Shown here piece by piece: positions 52,134 to 62,665 of a stretch of DNA of 64,000 nt. Every line of letters begins with the position of its first letter. The first letter of the stretch is position 1. A program made the position numbers and the translations under genes. Location: NCBI RefSeq assembly GCF_004210375.1, contig NC_134833.1:24928063-24992062 (forward strand), given 5' to 3'. The notes beneath the pieces were generated by a model, which was not told the origin of the DNA, ran no database searches, and saw only the letters and a list, made by a program, of their open reading frames with translations. Source of the stretch: Tachypleus tridentatus. Lineage: Eukaryota > Arthropoda > Merostomata > Xiphosura > Limulidae.

Positions 52134-53843
52134 TTATTCAGGTAGGAATTTGCGTTTGTAACTTTTGCGTTTGTACACTTCATCTGGACAATCTCGTTTA
52201 ATGCTCCAGCAGTAGTCAGCCATCATACTTTTGTCCCAGCCCTTGGTAGTGTTCTTCCATGACCTTTAGGTCTTGGTGGAATCGTTCTCCTTGTTAAGTC
52301 ACTCACAGCCCCAGGTTGTCAGGGAACTTATCAAGGTGGCTGTTCAAAAAATGAAGCTTGATGCTCATGTTGCACCGAGATCACGAAAAGTGAGGAGTAT
52401 TCTGTTCACAAGTTCACTGTAGTTCTCCGCCTTATTGTTTCCAAGGAAGTTCTGAACGACTGCCACAAAGGATAACCATGCTGCCTTTTCTAAAGCGGTT
52501 ATCTTAGCAACAAACTGATCATCACGAATTAGGGTTCGAATCTGTGGGCCATCAAACACGCCTGCTTTGATCTTCTCAAATGATAACCCTGGTAAAGCTG
52601 TGATGATGTGTTGGAAATATTCACCTTCGGTTTCCAGTGCCTTGACAAATTGCTTCATCAAACCTAATTTGATGTGAAGAGGAGGAAAGATGATCTTATC
52701 TCTGCTTACAATTGGGTCTTGTATGATATTTGGCATGCCTGCTTCAAGGGTGTCACAAATAGGCCAGTCCTTCTGGACCCAATGTCTGTCTCGTGCTCGA
52801 CTGTCCCACATACAGAGGAAACATGGAAACTTGGTGAAACCTTTCTGTTGTCCAAGAAGAAAGTTGACCATCTTTAAGTCTACACAAATGATCCAATTGT
52901 GCTCATTATATTTTAATAAGTCCATGACCATTCTCTTATCATCATAGTCTTCCATAAATGCACTGAGTGACCGACAGGTCCATAAACATTCCCATTATGT
53001 AAAAGAACACACTTTAGACTGCGTTTTGAACTGTCTAAAAAGAGTCTCCATTCAGCAGGTCTATAATAAGGTACACCCAGTTCTATGAGAAGCCCTTGGA
53101 TGTCATGGCAGTAAACAAACTGTCTGTCTTCTGAAAAGAAGGTCACTAAAAGCTGGTCACGCTTTCTGAAATATGATACTTTAACAGAGTGATCAACAAG
53201 ATTTCTGCCTTGTAATCTTGATGCCAAAAGCTCTGCTGCTTTCTTTGAAAGACCTAAATCCCGCACTAAATCATTCAGTTCAGCCTGGGGAAGAGGCTTG
53301 GGGACGGGAAAGGTTCAGTGTCTGAAGAACAGTTCTCGATTGTGTACACTTTTCTGACAATTCACTGTCACAACTGTCTTGTTCGCTTGTATCATGTCCA
53401 ATGTCTTTATCGTCCAATGAAGGCAAGCCTTTGAAAACTGGAACAGGAACTTCTTCAGAGTGCGGAGCAGGCGAATAGCTGAGGGAATGTTTGGATCGTA
53501 ATCTTTTGTCGGTTTTTCTTCCCAACACCGTTGTGTTTACCATGCAGAAATAACAGTCAGTTACATGGTTGGTGGGTTCGCGCTAAATCATTGGAACACC
53601 AAAATGCAGACCATTGCGTTTTCCTTTGATCCAGTCTCGAAGCATTTCCTCACAATTGTGGCACACAACATGAGGAGCCCATTGCTTGTCTTGATCACCA
53701 AGATGAACTTCAAAATATGCCTTGTAGGCACGCTTGACGAACGAGGATATGTTACGTCTCTGACGATTGAGTGTGTAGCATCCACATGTGTAGCAGAAGG
53801 CATCAGGCTTGTTTCTGCAATGATATCTATTTTTGGAAGCCAT
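52134..53843 (-). pseudogene. broken transposon-encoded protein (arthropod 'uncharacterized' family)
   Basis: Decays a protein of about 570 residues running from ATG at 53843 to TAA at 52134-52136. The N-terminal part (53843-53283) is Cys/His-rich (FCYTCGCYT, HVVCHNCEEML, TDCYFC), so probably zinc-binding. The middle has ELNDLVRDLGLSKKAAELL and EWRLFLDSSKRSLKCVLLHN. The C-terminal half has FPCFLCMWDSRARDRHW, FPPLHIKLGLMKQFVKAL, GVFDGPQIRTLI, FLGNNKAENY, MSIKLHFLNSHLDKFP, GERFHQDLKVMEEHYQG and MMADYCWSIKRDCPD. I know this motif set from many uncharacterised multi-copy arthropod proteins. Lesions: TGG to TAG at 53583-53585, frameshifts near 53290, 52965 and 52372, and several stops after about 52330. 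It is likely the transposase of the element around it (inference). Confidence 0.75.
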
Positions 53844-54093: not shown

Positions 54094-55090
54094 TACTTGC
54101 TATTTTTGGTGGCTGATTTTCTCTATGAATGGGAAAAGCTGCATTTAAATGACCATTTTCTGAGTTGCAAATGATAGTGTGGATGAGTTAAGTCCTATGA
54201 ATGTGATGTAGAGGACTATTTGTGCAGGTTTCTGTTGTTGCACATACTGAGAATGCACAGGCAGTTATGGCTGAGTAATATTCTTCTCTACTGAAGGCTG
54301 TTTGTTCCTACTGGGGTTCATCTAGCAATGAAATGATGAATCTAAAGTGTGTGTGTGTATTGGCTCTGAATTCTTGTTTAAAAAAAGTGGCCTCTCCAGG
54401 ATCTATTGGCTGGTCTTGTTGAGCTAGGATCAACTGAGTACTAGTGTTAGGCTTTCTCAACAGGTGTTGTAGATATTCTGTCTGATGCTGATGTATGAGT
54501 ATAGTGCTCATGAAGCCTTGGTATTTATATAGTTTACTTGTTTGGCATTGTAGTGCATCCCCTTGTAGAACTTCATGATGGGTGGAATGAGGGTGCACCG
54601 AGTATTGCTTTTTATATTATGGACCCCCCAAATTCTAATAAAAATAGCTCATTGGTAAGTAATCACACATAGAAAATTCTGAACAACAGTCTCTACTCCA
54701 TTCTGTATCTGTACCTCACTTTATCATACTCCATTCCTTGTCAGACGAAAGTCTAAAATTCACAAGAGAATAGAAGAACTTACTGGCTTGATGCAGATAG
54801 CCTAGTTGCTTTGTGCCATAAAACATGAAACCAACCAACTTACTGGCTCTCCAAAGTCAGTCAAGAAGCAACGTTCTGAGGACATCTTGATGTAAACATC
54901 TACCCCAACACACAGTGAACTCCTCTTGAACTCAAACACTGAGGTTACTACCCATCTCACTTTAAATTCCTCATGAAGTGATATTGTTGATAAGGGTTTG
55001 AAGAACATCCCAAAGTTAGAGAACCTCGTAGGTTTCTCCTACCATTTCCTTTTTTACTTTTTCCATTGTGTGTTACTTTTATCATATACA
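54094..55090. other. intergenic, no gene seen
   Basis: About 1 kb between the DNA transposon and the first 5S spacer. No conserved frame or known repeat was found; the short open frames have no motif. Confidence 0.6.
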
Positions 55091-56380
55091 TATTGGTAGG
55101 TCTCGCAAAGAGCTACTCAGTACCTCTCACTCTTTCACAGGTTTTGATATAAGTGATCCAAAAATCTAAACGCTGTGGGCTCAAGTGAAGTATCTTAGTA
55201 GCATGTGTCTATAGTCGAGCTCTTTTGGTAAGACATTTTTATCACGCGATCAGAGGAACTAATTGTTTAAGAGCTAGCGACAGAAACCTCATGCAGGTAA
55301 CGAACGAAAAGCAGTAAGTATGTTGTAAATTAAACACTCTTCCCAAACATATTATAGATCAGAAGCTTAAGGAAGAGGGAAGGGACGATACCCAATCTAC
55401 CATTTTATGCGAACACTAACAAAAGTAGCCGCTCCAAGCAGGTGTAGCGAGCGGCGTTTCCTTACACTTTTAACCAAACCCACCATTCAAAGTTTATTTG
55501 AAAGACAAAAATAAAAATCTCCACGGGTTGTTCTCTGACTTTCGTAATGCATGTAGGGTGCGGGATCCACACAACAGAAACAAGGTGACACCGACGATTG
55601 CACACCTTATTTAGAAGCAAATATATGTGTGTGTGTGTGTGTAACTACTATAGAGAATTAAATTTTCCAACAATAACAAGAGTGTTTGATATTGCGATAT
55701 CGAACGGAAAGGCAAGTAGAAAAACAAAAAAACGTTACAAAACAGTAAAAGCAAATTTGAAAGTTTTGCAGTGAAAGCAAACCTCGAAGCAAACGTCTTG
55801 AGCACAAGTAGCAAATTTGTTCGCGGCACGCTTCTGACTCACAAAGGGTAGTAACCGAGTGTGACAGGTGCTGCGGTAGTAACTGTTGCAGTTTGAAACA
55901 CACACCTTGTTCCTTTACTCATTCTGTTTCAATAACGTCAGTGAATGATCCCCAGTTTTTTCAATGTACTTCGATCAATATCCATACACTTCTTTAGCGA
56001 GAGAGAAAACAGCGACTTCTGAGACGCTATTACTAGAGGGTAACAAGCGTTTAATACTATTTTGTTGAAAGGAAGGAGGTGAGCAGGTTAATTAATGTGT
56101 ATAGCCAAATGACCAATAAAACAAGGTGAAAATTAAATTTAATAAATAATTATACTCCTAAGCTCATGTAAAAAACTAAATTCAGAAAACACATCTTTAA
56201 GTGATGGAAAATAGGCCTGTAACGAGAGGAAACCACCATATTTTGTGTAAGTGAAAGAAATATAAAGAAGGAAAAATCCTAACATGTGACTAAAAGACGT
56301 TTCAGACGGATCTCAGAGACCTAATTGATCAATTAAGTGTTCCACGTCGATGACACACACGCCTGTATGGGACAGTTTCT
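55091..56380 (+). repeat. 5S intergenic spacer, plus orientation, diverged copy
   Basis: Starts GGTAGGTCTCGCAAAGAGCT, which follows the 5S gene and its T-tract at 59571 and, on the other strand, at 62520. It can be followed against the minus-strand spacers in order: TAACGAACGAAA, CACTCTTCCCAAAC, GTAGTAACCGAGTGTGACAG, CATACACTTCTTTAGCGAGAG, GTGTATAGCCAAATGA and GACACACACGCCTGT. No 5S gene precedes it, so a breakpoint lies near 55091. At about 56380 it stops abruptly where retrotransposon ORF2 begins; the rest of the spacer, the 5S 5' half and ORF1 are missing there. Confidence 0.8.
55625..55642. repeat. (TG)n run
   Basis: A short TG tract in the plus-oriented spacer; it is absent from the minus-oriented spacer copies. 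Confidence 0.9.
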
Positions 56381-59300
56381 AACTTTGAAATAATTGTTTT
56401 AAAGTAATATTTGTGGTGTTGGCATATTTATACATAATCGATGTAACGCTCGTGTTATTCATAATGGCTGTGATTTTGAAGGTCGTGTACGTTGGCTTGA
56501 TGGGTTTTGGCGTACCTTTATACGTATTGTTTGTATATATGCCCTGATGGGTGAGACTGATCGAAATTTTTGTTTCCATAATCTGGATCAGTATTTAATA
56601 TCTAGTCGCCCCCTTATTGGTTGCGGTGATTTTAATTGTATTTCTGACCCACTTTTAGACAAATGTGAATGGAATTTTTTAAGCAGTATGGTCTCATATG
56701 AAGATTTAAAGAATATTATGTGTACCTATTCATTGTGTGATATTTGATAGAGGTTACATCCCAATTTAAAGGAATTTACTTGGACGAATAGATCTATTTC
56801 AACTCGTATTCACCGCTTTTTAGTTTCAATTCAACTTTTTCAAGGCTCAGTATTTTGTCGTATTCTTTCTTGTACATTTTCTGATCATGGTTTTGTGGAA
56901 CTTTGCCTTTATAATATTTCAACGATTTCTTTTGGACCTGGTTATTTTATGTTAAATACGTCTAAATAAATCATGTTGCATGATTCCTTTACCAATGCTC
57001 TTCTTAATCTCTGGTCTGTATTTGCTTCAGCTCATCCTGATTTTCGTTGGTGGTGTAACTTCAAAACAGCTGTCAAGCTCTGGCAATTCGTATTTCAAAA
57101 GCAATTTGTCGAGAACGTCTATCTCATATTAAAGAGCTACAACACAAAATATAAACTGCTAATTTGAATCCTCTCTTAACTAGCGATGAGAAACGTATTA
57201 AACGTGTTTTACGTAGTGCTTTAAACGATCTATTACAGGCTCGTTTGGGAGGTGCCATTATTTGTTCTAAGGCAAATTTATTGTCGGATTGAGAAACGGT
57301 CACAAATTATTTCATTTGTCGGGAATGTCGCAATGGTGGGCGAAAATGCTTAACTTCTCTGACAACAGACAGCGGAAAAATAACTGGTACGTCGAATATT
57401 TGACCTGTTGTAGAATCTTACTTTACTCATTTATTTGCTCGTTACAATTGTGATTCTTCCTTGGTTTCCTATTTTTTTAAATAACTTGCCTCAACTTTCT
57501 TTCACACACAATGATAGATTGGCTGCAACTATAACGTATGACGAATGCCACATTGCTTTAAAATCGATGGAAGGTGGGAAATCGCAGGTTTGTATGGCTT
57601 ACCTAAATAATTTTATATTCGTTATTTTCACTTATTTGGTGCTAAATGTATTCAGCTAATAAATGATGACTTCAGTGATGGTTTTTCACCTAATTTTGCT
57701 CGAGGTGTTATTTCGCATATTCCCCAAACAAATCGTGATTGCAGTTTAATTCAAAATTGGCGCTTATTACTCTTTTGAATGTTGACTATAAAATCTTAAC
57801 CAAAGTTTTAACACTTCGTTGCGACCCGTCTTGGCTGACGTCATTAGTCTTGATCAAGCTTGTGCCGTTTCCGGTCGTCGTTTTTGTGATCTACTACATC
57901 TCATTCGCGATGTTATTATGTTCGAGAACGAAACGCTGACTGCGCTGTTGTGTCTGTTGTCAGGAATATGAATTTGACCGCATATCACACGATTATCTGT
58001 TCCGTGTTCTGTCGGCTTTTCGGTTTCTCCCTGTGTTTGTTGATTACATTCGTAGATTATATCTATCTGCTGAAAGGTGTGTTGGTTAACGGTTTTTTCA
58101 GGGATTTATTTCCCATTCATAGATCGTTCCATCAAGGTTGTAGTCTATCCGTGGTCTTGTATGTTTTGTGTTTGGAACCACTTTTGCGTAAGATGACACT
58201 TTATTTTGGACGTTGTGGTCTTCCTGTTACTGTTGAGTTTGTTGAGTATGTTGCATTTGCTGATAATGTATCGTTTATTTGTCGATCTCGAGACAGTGTA
58301 CATCATATGTTTTCGTTACTTGATTTATTTTGTTTTTTTTTCAGGGGCAAAAGTTAAGCGTGAAAAAGCACTTGGTTTGTTGTTGGGGCCGTGGGTGTCG
58401 AGCATCGTTGACTTGTATCCTATTCAGTGGTCTTGAGATAATATCCAGATGTTTGGAGTTCTGTTTGGTGGAATCTCTGGTCGTGCTAACTGGGAGCGTC
58501 TCCTTTCTTCTTTTCACACAAATCTAAATGATTCATTTTATTGTCACTTTTCATTGCGAGAGAGAGCGTTATATTTTAATGTATTTCATTGTTTTAAACT
58601 GTGGTTTAATGGGGTATATTTCCGATTGAACGATCACATTTGGCTGTATTACTTAGTAATCTTTCGAAGTTTTTCTGGAAGAGTAAGAACTCGTTTATTC
58701 GTCGGGATATTTTATATTTATTTGTCACTAATGGTGGATCGAGAGTGTGTGATATGAAACTGAAATTACAGGCTTTTATTTTATTTCATGTTGTGGATCT
58801 TCTTAGTCCCAGGCATGCTCAATGGAAATATTTTGCGCGATTTTGGTTTGGTTTTCATTTACATCACTTACGATCTGAATTTCTCTCTAATGCTTCACCA
58901 CGTTCATCTTTTCATTTACTGCATTTTTACAATTCACTTTTCATTTACTGCATTTTTACAATTCACTGTTGAGGCTTTACAGGGAATGCTGTTCTCAGTT
59001 TTGTGAATTTGACTGGTCGTAAGCAACGGTTAAAGTCATTTTTAACAAACTTTTAACGGTATCTGAGACACCTATAATATTTATGTTGTATCCAGGTTTG
59101 AGGTTAACTTGGCAATGGAAGTATGTGACACATATTTCGTATCATCCTCGAGTTTTTTTTTTATCTTAATTGGAAATTATGACACCAAGTCCTGCCTACT
59201 CAGTCGTTTTTGTTTCGGCATCATATTGAATCTCCGTCGCGTCATTCCTGTTTCTTACATGAAGATGTTGAACATTTGTTTAATACGTGTCGTGTAATTT

Positions 59301-59506
59301 GTCCTGTGTGGAAAAGATGTGTTACTTTCCTCAGCTGTTGTTCTGATGGTTTAGTTGTTTTTTTTTTTCCATGTATATTATCTGTTGGATAATTCTAGTA
59401 AACTCCATGTATAACTGTAATTGTCAACAAGATTGTCATTGTAATTTTGTTATAATTTTCTATAATGCATGTAGTTTGTTTCTTTGTTTTTTAATAATAA
59501 ATAAAG
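56381..59506 (+). pseudogene. Tx1/L1-type retrotransposon ORF2, decayed, 5'-truncated
   Basis: ORF2 of a non-LTR retrotransposon, normally one protein with AP-like endonuclease, reverse transcriptase and C-terminal zinc motif. Endonuclease blocks: NICGVGIFIHNR (56403), RIVCIYA, IGCGDFNCIS (56616-56642), TWTNRS and FSDHGF (about 56876-56893), holding the catalytic GDFN and SDH residues. RT blocks: MEGGKS (57565), LLNVDYKILTKVLTLR (57770), DRISHDYLFRVLSAF (about 57976), FHQGCSLSVVLYVL (about 58125) and VAFADNVSFIC (58250). The last replaces the catalytic YADD, so the second Asp is Asn. GGISGRANWERLLSSF follows at 58470, and a C-terminal LHEDVEHLFNTC (59253-59290). Stops (from 56747) and frameshifts throughout kill it. 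The 3' end is an AATAAATAAAG tail abutting 5S sequence. Confidence 0.85.
58908..58965 (+). repeat. 29-bp tandem duplication within ORF2 remnant
   Basis: The 29-bp segment beginning CTTTTCATTTACTGC occurs twice back to back with no differences, so it is a recent replication slip in the dead ORF2. Confidence 0.9.
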
Positions 59507-59570
59507 AGCAACGTCGGGCCCGGTTAGTATTTGAGAAAATGACCATCTGTGAATATCAGGTGATGACGAC
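59507..59570 (+). pseudogene. 5S rRNA 3' half (nt 55-118), plus strand
   Basis: AGCAACGTCGGGCCCGGTTA begins the match to 5S nt 55 onward and runs to GATGACGAC, followed by the T8 terminator. Against the intact gene at 62548-62665 it has about ten changes, most of them C-to-T or G-to-A. Nt 1-54 are replaced by the retrotransposon 3' end, so the internal promoter is split and the gene cannot work. Confidence 0.9.
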
Positions 59571-59935
59571 TTTTTTTTCACGTTCAAATTGGTACGTCTC
59601 GCAAAGAGCTGATCGATACTTCTCACTTTTTCACAAGTTCTGATAGAAGAGATAAAAAAAATCCTTCTCGAAAGAACGTGGTGGGCTCAAGTGAAGTGCT
59701 TTAATATGATGTGTCGATAATGGTAAACTCTTGGGAAGACATTTTTGTCGTGGGAACTAATCTACTTTTCCATCAGCTATAGAGGAAAAATCCATGCAAG
59801 TAACGAACGAAAGTCATCAAGTCAGTTAATTAAACACGCTTCCGAAACGTATTCTTGACCAGAGGCTTTAGCGAACAAAACGGAATTCAAACCATCATTT
59901 CCTGCGATCGTCAAGAAAAGTACCAGCTCCAAGCA
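59571..59935 (+). repeat. 5S intergenic spacer start, plus orientation
   Basis: T8 terminator, then GGTACGTCTCGCAAAGAGCT and the same ordered blocks as 55091-55450 and the reverse complement of 62190-62547. It ends at CAGCTCCAAGCA, where all other spacer copies continue AGGTG but this one switches to ORF1 read backwards. Confidence 0.85.
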
Positions 59936-60752
59936 CGGATTCCAGCAGGGGGATAACTACTAGCCCGTTCCCTGGCCCCACCAGAAACCGTCAGTCGACT
60001 GGAAGATACATCCACCCAAGGGGTAGCTGTAGTCTCCATTGAAAGGGAAACCTCCGAATCAGCGCGTTGACGAACAGACAGTCTTTCAGCGTCTTCAGGT
60101 ACTGCACGAGAAGCAACAACAGTGGCCACGTCAGCGTCGTCACAAGAAGAAGGCCGAGGAACAACAAGCTTGGGACAACGTTGTCGAACATGTCCTTGCA
60201 CATGACAATGTCGGCAAATAAACTGGGGACAATCGCGATATAAATGATCCGCCCCCAAACATAAATTACACACTTTTGACTGGCGATAATGCTTCACCTT
60301 TAACATAACCGCCTTGCCCAAAGTATCAAAAACTTTCACAACGTACGGCAAAGAGATACACTTTTCACTAAAGACACACGAACATGGCGTATACCTAAAT
60401 ATATGCCCTGGTCTCTCTTCCACACTATAGGGCTCCTTACTTCACAAGCAAAATCCTTAAGTTTATTTAGAAGAACATCATCGGCTATATATTCTGGTAC
60501 TTCCATAAAAGAAACAGTAATAGTGCGTTTAGTTACACCATTAGCCAAACAATGTACACCATTTACAACAAGACCAGCATCGACAGCTAGGTCCACGTAG
60601 GCAGGGAGAACAAAAGTTACCTCACACCCTCCCGGGCGAGGAACAACAGCAGTAACCGAAGCAGCACCAAACGTATTCATAACAGCATGGATCACGTCCA
60701 CATGGTTTGAATTGGAAGTTTCCACAAACACCGTGCGATGCATTAATTCCAT
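59936..60752 (-). CDS. Tx1-type retrotransposon ORF1 (CCHC gag-like), 3'-cut, one frameshift
   Basis: Encodes the RNA-binding ORF1 protein of a Tx1-clade non-LTR retrotransposon. From ATG at 60752 it reads MELMHRTVFVETSNS, then VNGVHCLANGV, TITVSFMEVPEYIADDVLLN (the VSFMxVPxxI block typical of Tx1 ORF1) and SPIVWKRD. After a one-base frameshift near 60360 come YVVKVFDTLGKAVMLKVKHY and two zinc knuckles, CNLCLGADHLYRDC and CRHCHVQGHVRQRC (both C-x2-C-x4-H-x4-C). A Ser/Arg-rich C-terminal part then ends artificially at the breakpoint near 59936; the stop codon lies in spacer. About 272 codons remain. Only one lesion in about 800 bp suggests a young copy. The start codon lies five bases past the 5S junction. 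Confidence 0.85.
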
Positions 60753-60757
60753 ACTTG

Positions 60758-60818
60758 CGTTGCTTAGCTTCGGTGATCGGACGAGAGCCGGCGCTTTCAA
60801 CGTGGTATGAACGATGAC
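60758..60818 (-). pseudogene. 5S rRNA 5' half (nt 1-61), minus strand
   Basis: Runs from GTCATCGTTCATACCACG (nt 1 at 60818) to AAGCTAAGCAACG (nt 61 at 60758), then directly into retrotransposon ORF1. It differs from the intact gene at only one position in 61. The break falls in the A-box part of the internal promoter, so the gene is inactivated. Confidence 0.92.
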
Positions 60819-62547
60819 AGTTTAATTTTCTTTCTTATTTGGTGTTTTAAGTGTTACTCTAAAAGAAAATCGTTGTCGCAGCCCAAAATTTCCTAGTTGT
60901 GAAATATAAGAGATGCTTTAGGAATTCACTTTTACTGGAGGACGCTGGAAAGTGGAGCCTGATAACTCTGGTTTGCGTTACACATCCCCGGAACTACACG
61001 AGTGTCATTTCGGGGGTATGGAAACTGTCGCTCACAGGCGTGTGTGTCATTCACATGGAACACTTAAATTGATCAATTTAGCCTCTGAGAACTTTTCTCA
61101 AACGTCTTTTAGTCACATGTTGGTGTTTATGTCTTCTTTATATTTCTTTCGGACCTACTTTCGGAAAATCTGGTATTTTACTCTCGTTACACAGGCCCAC
61201 ATCCCATCACTTACAGATGTGTGTGCAGAATTTAGATTTTAACACGAGCTTGCATCGGGATTAGAATTATTTAATATTCACCTTCTTTTATTCGTCATTT
61301 GGCTATACACATTAATTTACCTGTGTTTATTAACGTGTATTTTGGTTTCCATCGGGAGAAGTCGTGTGTGCTCGCCTCCTTCTCCCCCTACAACAAAATA
61401 GTATTAAACGCTGGTTACCGTCTAGTGGGAGTGCCTCAGAAGTCGCTCTTTTGTCTCTCGCTAAAGAAGTGTATGGATATTAATGAAAGTACGTTGCAAA
61501 AACTGGGAATAATTCTCTGACGTTATAGAAACAGAATGAATAAAGGAACAGCACCTGTCACACTCGGCTACTACCGTTCGCGAGTCGGAAGCGTGCCACG
61601 TACCGAGTTCCTACTTATCTGAAGACGTTTCCTTCGCGTTTTGCTTGCACTGCTATGTTGACAATTTTGCTTTTACTGTTTTGTAACTCTTTTTTTTTTC
61701 TTGTTGTTTCTACTCACCTATTTTGTTTTATACTCCAATAGCAAAGACTCTTGTCGTTATTGGAAAGTTAATTTTCAAATGTACATACATATAAAATAGA
61801 TATTTGATTTATAAATAAGGTGTTCAATCGTCGGTGTCTCCGAGTGAAGTCTCTCTCTGCTGGGTTATATTTCTAGACAAAGTAATTTTACAAAACGTAG
61901 CGAACGAACGTTATGTAAGGAAACTCGAAATATTTGTCGCATCGCCTTTTCTGTGTAGCAGACAGATCCCTCGACAATTGCTTTTCCCAGGCAAAACGTG
62001 CACGAGCGAGACAATTTTGTGAAATAGGGAAACGTTTTAAATTCCATCTGTATAAGACTGCCTTAGATTGATGTGGGCTGGATCTACTCGTTAACGAAGT
62101 TTCTGTTTTGTAGACTTCGCACCCTTTGTGCATTCCGAAGATCGACCCGCGAAGATAGTTTATTTCTTTTCTCTCAATATACGTCTGATTGGAGGAGTTT
62201 GGTTTAAAGTGAAATGGAACGCGGCTCACGCCACCTGCTTAGAGAGCTGCTACTTTTCTTGAACGATCGCAGGAAATGAATGTTTGAACTTCGTTTTCGA
62301 AGCGTGTTTTATCAACTGACTTGTTGATGGAAAAGTTGATTAGTTCCTATAACAAAATGTTTTCCCAACAGTTTACCATTATAAACACTTAGTATTAAGG
62401 CACTTCAATTGAGCCAACCAATTTCTTTCTCTCTTTCGGGAAGGATTTTTTATCTCTTAAATCAGAAATTGTGAAAAAAGTGAGAGGTATCGATCAGCTC
62501 TTTGCGAGACCTACAAATTTCAACGTGAAAAAAAAAAAAAAAAAAAA
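60819..62547 (-). repeat. 5S intergenic spacer, minus array, unit 1
   Basis: About 1.73 kb between two 5S genes. It is nearly identical to 62666-64000 over the part present, with a constant offset of 1,847-1,849 bp and indels only at a G run (61014/62863) and an A run (61500/63348). Small open frames repeat identically in both units because the units are identical, not because they are genes. No U1, U2, U6 or spliced-leader gene is seen in the spacer. Confidence 0.9.
62528..62547 (-). terminator. RNA polymerase III terminator of 5S (T20)
   Basis: Twenty consecutive T on the 5S sense strand immediately after the last 5S base. The plus-strand half-gene has T8 at the same place. Confidence 0.9.
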
Positions 62548-62665
62548 GTCATCATCACCCGGTATTCCCAGGTGGTCACCCTCCCAAGTACTAACCGGGC
62601 CCGCCGTTGCTTAGCTTCGGTGATCGGACGAGAACCGGCGCTTTCAACGTGGTATGAACGATGAC
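62548..62665 (-). rRNA. 5S rRNA: 5S ribosomal RNA, complete (118 nt)
   Basis: The sense strand begins GTCATCGTTCATACCACGTT and ends ACCGGGTGATGATGAC. The ends pair (GTCATC with GATGAC) to form helix I. Internal promoter elements are intact: A box/IE around GAAGCTAAGCAACGGCGGGC and C box around GGTTAGTACTTGGGAGGGTG. The family-wide stretch CGTCCGATCACCGAAGCTAA is present. Transcribed by RNA polymerase III with TFIIIA; the product joins the large ribosomal subunit. It is the only whole 5S gene in the window; the next is predicted beyond the right edge. Confidence 0.96.

Follow-up and report, generated by a model that had tools for sequence, protein, structure and literature searches.

LINEs of the L1 superfamily within 5S rRNA and tRNA genes of Tachypleus tridentatus, traced from the edge of a 5S array

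The window and its elements

The window, meaning the whole 64,000-nucleotide stretch of Tachypleus tridentatus DNA that we analysed (G000:C9:24928063-24992062), belongs to a single genome assembly of 2.17 Gb in 205 contigs. It very probably contains the eroded margin of a 5S ribosomal RNA (rRNA) gene array, with pieces of two families of long interspersed nuclear elements (LINEs), both of the L1 superfamily and with an apurinic/apyrimidinic (AP) endonuclease. One piece is a remnant of an old family, named C; the other is nearest to B, one of two close and young families named A and B. We are confident that these elements represent a LINE specialised in genes transcribed by RNA polymerase III (Pol III), with A and B at nucleotide (nt) 27 of 5S genes and nt 24-27 of tRNA genes, and the older C at nt 55 of 5S genes. 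The margin comprises the following features, in which ORF stands for open reading frame and RT for reverse transcriptase.

62547..62665 (-): intact 5S rRNA gene of the tandem array (Rfam RF00001, 106.6 bits, E 2e-22)
60819..62546 (-): 5S intergenic spacer (self-alignment)
60758..60818 (-): broken 5S gene, nt 1-61, abutting the ORF1 fragment (Rfam, E 1.5e-5)
59938..60757 (-): ORF1 fragment, cut on its 3' side, nearest to family B, with two CCHC knuckles and one internal frame change
59572..59937 (+): degraded 5S spacer, in the orientation opposite to the right-hand array (self-alignment)
59507..59571 (+): degraded 5S gene, nt 55-119, directly after the family C 3' end (sequence alignment)
56381..59506 (+): family C ORF2 remnant with a partial AP endonuclease, RT, C-terminal zinc finger, the 3' end AATAATAAATAAAG and many stops
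55077..56380 (+): degraded 5S spacer on the left side of the ORF2 remnant, with an identity of about 70-71% to other spacer copies

The unit of the tandem array is about 1.85 kb long, and the neighbouring unit is 99.8% identical by self-alignment. At about 59937 the degraded spacer is joined in inverted orientation to the ORF1 fragment. The ORF2 remnant, interrupted by stops throughout, is truncated at its 5' end against the degraded spacer at 56380.

The elements are L1-superfamily LINEs: their RT is nearest to L1 ORF2p, an AP-type endonuclease is encoded upstream of it, and a zinc finger lies at the C terminus. In a search of the PDB, where only families with solved structures could compete, the RT of family A matched a chain that bears no other name than RNA-directed DNA polymerase (E 5e-33), LINE-1 ORF2p (E 1e-32) and R2 (E 6e-10). 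The family A stretch from endonuclease to RT is collinear with L1 ORF2p 87-484 (E 6.5e-23). Pfam identified zf-RVT after the RT of this family (E 1.3e-9) and Exo_endo_phos at E 2e-4, below its cut-off. For the window itself, the ORF2 pieces gave RVT_1 (E 4e-4) and zf-RVT (E 0.002), both below the curated cut-offs, and ORF1 gave zf-CCHC_2 (E 0.022), also below the cut-off. The RT piece taken alone has L1 as its best match, weakly at E 0.04; the endonuclease piece alone had no match in Pfam or the PDB, and PDB searches with two window pieces returned no LINE relative. The AlphaFold model of the N-terminal part of ORF1 (pLDDT 51) is too weak to claim an RNA recognition motif fold.

An earlier note on this DNA, made from the sequence alone, had described two CCHC knuckles and a VSFMxVP block in ORF1; we recovered them as two CX2CX4HX4C knuckles and a "VSFMEVP" block. 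The CCHC knuckles are presumably a Tx1-clade trait, and we take the motifs to be Tx1-like; membership of the Tx1 clade, judged from these motifs, is likely. Families A and B also display sequence-specific insertion into a multicopy gene, a trait of that clade. Viral contigs searched for ORF1 relatives, the RT motif and animal 5S yielded none of them, and a search of GTDB contigs with the RT motif gave four loci (L001-L004).

Families A and B in 5S and tRNA genes

LINEs lie within 5S genes in 8 of the 11 stretches fetched from 5S arrays, and they form the two families A and B, which are 84-89% identical to each other. The 5S sequence breaks at nt 39 (A) or nt 39/40 (B) and resumes in both cases at nt 27 after a poly(A) tail. 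In the array stretches, each of the nine 3' sides read consists of poly(A) followed by 5S nt 27, and the nine 5' breaks all lie at nt 39/40, including that of a 5'-truncated copy. Families A and B therefore insert in the sense orientation at one fixed 5S position, with the 3' junction at nt 27 and an apparent duplication of 13-14 bp. Genome-wide, the exact A/B 3' end occurs 138 times and the 5S nt-27 junction pattern at 64 places (none for the reversed-pattern control). Of the 5S copies counted with exact patterns, 64 have a break at nt 27 and 109 are unbroken, so that about 37% are broken. Among the best 40 of 286 candidates, family A 3' ends are 99-100% alike, which indicates that many copies are young.

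A tRNA B box lies within 35-65 nt after the same 3' ends at 62 places in the genome, and nowhere in the reversed-pattern control. The nt-27 and B-box patterns use a shorter 3' end than the exact search and their counts are not strict subsets of the 138. Among the 100 listed of these 138 exact ends, 39 are in 5S genes, 43 in tRNA genes and 18 in neither by exact pattern; we read 12 of the latter and found nine in tRNA or tRNA-like sequences and three unassigned. In all, we read 40 3' flanks, picked mostly outside the first-listed 5S arrays and not randomly. Thirty-nine were informative: eight are in 5S, 28 in tRNA or tRNA-like sequences by reading, and three are unassigned. The tRNA targets are the genes for Val, Leu, Ser, Asp and Thr, all with complete anticodon stems. 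Ile and Met genes, for which the flanks are weaker, are probably targets as well. The 3' junctions in tRNA genes lie, with few exceptions, at nt 24-27. When the DNA of the endonuclease/RT region was compared with that of a 5S-sited copy, tRNA-sited places were 97-99% identical and 5S-sited places 97-100% (best 40 of 210 candidates), which indicates that one element uses both targets.

In Leu and Ser genes the nick lies in TAAGGC^G, which resembles the 5S context GAAAGC^G. The contexts in Val (TATCA^C) and Asp genes (GAGTA^T or GGGTA^T) do not, which suggests that position matters besides sequence. To characterise the 5' side, 14 5' regions of non-5S copies were fetched, of which ten contained the 5' end and were paired with their own 3' flanks. 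Duplications were found at eight of these ten tRNA loci (52, 53, 53, 62, 62, 104, 19 and 60 bp). Seven of the eight, those of 52-104 bp, extend beyond the end of the tRNA gene, and six end in TTT or a longer T-run. ARAGORN called tRNA genes immediately upstream of the element at seven of the nine loci submitted; for L104, the reading covers the 5' flank only and stops short of the element.

Several points weigh against this account of A and B, among them the non-random choice of the flanks read. The ORFs of the fetched copies carry frame changes, partly at homopolymers. Three of the 31 informative non-5S flanks are not recognisable tRNA (L055, L070 and L088), one Leu copy joins near nt 40 (L056), and one Met-like flank leads back into element sequence (L074). 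Many tRNA copies are concentrated in a few clusters on C5 and C13, which inflates the tRNA counts, so that not all represent independent insertions. Two of the eight duplications end otherwise, one in TTTATT and one, of 19 bp, in CATT within the tRNA gene, and no duplication was seen at L094 and L095, which seem to be one duplicated locus. Of the upstream tRNA genes called, seven in number, two have changed anticodons (L102 and L106), and paired duplication copies differ at 0 to 6 positions in an ungapped comparison; tRNA genes rebuilt in this way need not work.

A programmed frameshift in ORF1 was considered and rejected. The G-run in question is four or five residues long depending on the copy, and decay or assembly error is a simpler explanation.

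Some copies show peculiar arrangements. At C4:104682065-104696013, four element 5' ends lie on one strand, three of them spaced by 3.86 kb, possibly an array of shortened copies, and head-to-head pairs of 5' ends about 3.5 kb apart occur at C4:45.857M, C9:24.58M and C9:43.117M. At C5:56.36-57.82M and C13:271.49M, 3' ends are repeated head to tail with a period of about 5.58-5.60 kb. Three of the head-to-tail copies were read (L064, L066 and L069), and their order is element, 3' half of tRNA-Val with TTT, the leader described below, and next element. At L082 (C10:170163141) and L085 (C13:97172313), the element is joined at the tRNA-equivalent position to B-box sequences that resemble tRNA-derived short interspersed nuclear elements.

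The 5S-derived leader and a possible mode of insertion

At all ten 5' ends read in tRNA loci, a 19-nt sequence identical to 5S nt 21-39, GAAAGCGCCGGTTCTCGTC, separates the upstream flank from the element (in one case with a single change). An extra G precedes it in eight of the ten. Genome-wide, the leader is found at 111 5' ends, 43 of which have the extra G, none of these 43 being at a 5S array; TTT stands ahead of the extra-G leader at 27 places. If the RNA starts at 5S nt 21/22, the motif AGACG falls at +28/+29, the same place as the downstream promoter element near +28 to +32 that is present in insect LINEs (PMC4748587). On the simplest reading, the leader would derive from a capped RNA beginning at 5S nt 21, the cap having been copied as G. 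An Rfam search of 371 bp spanning the 5' end of a single copy, L013, detected no ribozyme family up to E 5, and a ribozyme of the HDV/R2 type was accordingly rejected as the source of the leader.

Three points tell against an RNA start in the 5S gene. The start site is deduced from DNA copies alone and AGACG is short, the extra G is absent from two of the ten leaders read, and the element could include the 19 nt permanently in its own sequence, captured once from 5S. This last possibility, in which the leader of tRNA copies is the inherited 5' end of the element and is not re-acquired at each target, is a serious one whose chances we put only slightly short of even. It would account for the near identity of the leader among the tRNA copies read and for variants common to several of them (GGTTTTCGTC in L064 and L066). 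The element, however, starts at the same place in 5S- and tRNA-sited copies, and inheritance is itself compatible with an RNA start at nt 21. With the same start at both targets, the data cannot separate an inherited from a target-acquired leader.

An insertion pathway can be inferred that includes an RNA start within the 5S gene. ORF2 would nick the bottom strand just before nt 25-27, and the nick would prime reverse transcription of the poly(A)-tailed RNA. L1 endonuclease prefers T-runs. In tRNA genes, the cut in the second strand would usually fall beyond the end of the gene, in most cases at a T-run, for example the Pol III terminator, and the resulting duplication would rebuild the tRNA gene upstream of the element. 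The RNA itself would begin at nt 21/22 of a 5S gene from an internal RNA polymerase II promoter, with AGACG at +28/29, and thereby carry the 19-nt leader. At 5S targets, pairing between the leader and the upstream target would determine the uniform 5' junction, in which case the apparent 13-14 bp duplication may be partly leader. At tRNA targets, the leader would stay behind as a tag. As a whole, we propose only tentatively that Pol III genes form one home class for these elements: one endonuclease would open 5S genes and unlike tRNA genes at nt 25-27, an in-gene RNA start and a target-derived leader would fix the 5' junction in 5S, and a terminator-side cut would rebuild the tRNA gene, so that insertion could be harmless.

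By analogy, the element may work like a target-specific LINE such as Mutsu, with a preference for Pol III genes like that of TRE5-A and a use of its leader like that of R2. We take Mutsu to belong to the Tx1 clade. In zebrafish, it is a non-LTR element (lacking long terminal repeats, LTRs) of about 5.5 kb with two ORFs, found in 5S genes (PMC11202950, PMC3706591). It thus resembles the elements described here as a target-specific two-ORF non-LTR element in 5S genes. Families A and B differ from it in not being 5S-specific, given their 64 places in 5S and 62 beside tRNA B boxes; family C alone was found exclusively in 5S (five of five retained 3' ends). Insertion of Mutsu into tRNA genes is not mentioned in the relevant parts of the same two articles. 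In Tribolium freemani, 5S arrays are regularly interrupted by non-LTR elements of about 5 kb, with shortened 5S copies (PMC11202950). These LINEs differ in being termed Jockey-like, and the short 5S copies lack 30 bp at the start of the gene; junctions, an RNA leader or tRNA copies are not reported in the results section of that article (PMC11202950).

TRE5-A of Dictyostelium is an L1-clade LINE that targets both tRNA and 5S genes, and its ORF1 protein contacts TFIIIB (PMC5911963). Its insertions lie upstream of the genes, at 40-54 bp for tRNA and at 37-41 bp for 5S, whereas A and B do not insert at a distance upstream: their 3' junctions are within the tRNA and 5S genes (PMC5911963 for TRE5-A). 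Dada DNA transposons do insert within tRNA and 5S genes, in the former around the A box and the anticodon, but they use a DDD/E transposase, generate duplications of 6-7 bp and follow another mechanism (PMC8869645). R2, a 28S-specific LINE, provides the precedent for annealing of a leader (PMC3774820). The R2 leader comes from a co-transcript cut by a ribozyme, of which the 371 bp of L013 showed no trace; the endonuclease of A and B is of the AP type and not restriction-like, and their protein is nearer to L1 than to R2. In the open-licence literature, a scope that excludes Repbase reports and subscription journals, we came across no LINE described from the interior of 5S as well as tRNA genes.

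Each of the target-specific LINEs inside RNA genes of which we found a description uses a single target. Here, 5S and tRNA genes are both used, at matching positions, by one young and abundant family, and an older relative, family C, used another place in 5S. A single genome thus makes it possible to test how a LINE endonuclease changes its target, whether its cue is the DNA sequence or the Pol III machinery, and whether elements other than R2 rely on a host-derived leader to guide second-strand synthesis. Long duplications, which apparently spare the tRNA genes, would offer a mobile element a route to living within an essential gene.

Family C and the junctions of the window

A genome search with the 3' end of the window ORF2 gave 21 matches, which correspond to six loci with a substantial ORF2 remnant. 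The 3' end is kept in five of them (the window, C9:25.03M, C9:24.69M, C19:67.65M and C11:4.98M), and all five run into 5S at nt 55-57. The earlier note had asked whether most ORF2 copies end outside 5S; for family C, none of the retained ends does. The first four loci are not independent, as their flanks are 94-99% alike, and they are probably segmental copies of one insertion; the copy at C11:4.98M is 83-84% identical. At the sixth locus (C9:41.58M, 87%), the 3' end is lost and the 5' end kept: degraded 5S runs to about nt 68 and is followed by GAGTACAGACATG, which resembles the A/B 5' end GAGTRCAGACGTG. The alignment is ambiguous between about nt 61 and 69. A family C duplication of about 14 bp (nt 55-68), comparable to the 13-14 bp of A and B, is likely from this alignment, although a 5' boundary known from one degraded copy weighs against it. 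No significant ORF1 similarity was detected between family A and the 5' region of family C.

The joins that the earlier note had read in the window are real: 5S nt 1-61 passes at 60758 into ORF1, the ORF2 3' end passes at 59507 into 5S nt 55 onward, AGCAACG (5S nt 55-61) is kept at both, and both pieces are sense to 5S. They are not the two ends of one element. The window ORF2 has no match to A or B at the DNA level, and its amino acid identity with family A is 26% in the endonuclease and 32-33% in the RT. Identity of the window ORF1 with family B reaches 96-97% across 635 bp and 91-92% across the final 212 bp, compared with about 81% for family A. The fragment starts 140-167 bp inside the family B element, the preceding stretch being absent from it. 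At L025, a 99% copy of the window arrangement, and at L047 (96%), ORF1 abuts spacer and not 5S nt 61. L047 is no simple copy, since its ORF1 piece is 87% identical to that of the window and partly 98% to family A. Judged from these alignments, the junction of ORF1 with 5S nt 61 is best read as a rearrangement at the edge of the array.

It is unlikely that this junction instead goes back to a genuine insertion of family B, truncated at its 5' end and with an exceptionally long duplication, and not to a rearrangement. The break at nt 61 does seem recent, because the flanking 5S gene and spacer hardly differ from the neighbouring unit (99.8% identity), and duplications in tRNA targets are likewise long. 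Yet the 5'-truncated B copy in 5S (L020) retains nt 39/40, the 3' side is lost in the window, and L025 and L047 combine the left join of the window with other right joins.

We consider far less probable still the model of the earlier note, a single 5S-specific family of Tx1/Mutsu type with a target duplication of up to 7 bp at nt 55-61. The AGCAACG common to both window junctions and the five family C 3' ends at nt 55-57 speak for it. Opposed to it are the derivation of ORF1 and ORF2 from different families, the site of family B at nt 27-40, the sister copies of the window arrangement without the nt-61 join, and the sole family C 5' end, which seemingly remains in 5S as far as about nt 68, in an alignment that is ambiguous beyond about nt 61. 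On these grounds, the 7-bp duplication was rejected. The breaks shared by copies are at nt 27-39/40 in the young families and at about nt 55-68 in the old one. What stands of that model is an AP-endonuclease/RT LINE with two ORFs, sense in 5S, of the L1 superfamily; restriction to 5S does not hold for A and B, which lie beside tRNA B boxes about as often as in 5S. Weakest of all, and very improbable, is passive targeting, in which insertion would be broad and survival limited to multicopy Pol III genes; such genes are generally known to tolerate insertions, but a shared position (5S nt 27, tRNA nt 24-27) and a single orientation in the junctions read are unexpected from survival alone.

The ORF2-to-5S join of the window is found at four loci (the window, L025, L045 and L047) with flanks 94-99% alike, one of them on C19, and three of the four also contain the inverted ORF1 piece. 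Elsewhere in the window, positions 52365-52955 (-) hold an open frame of 196 aa with no Pfam match at E 0.01.

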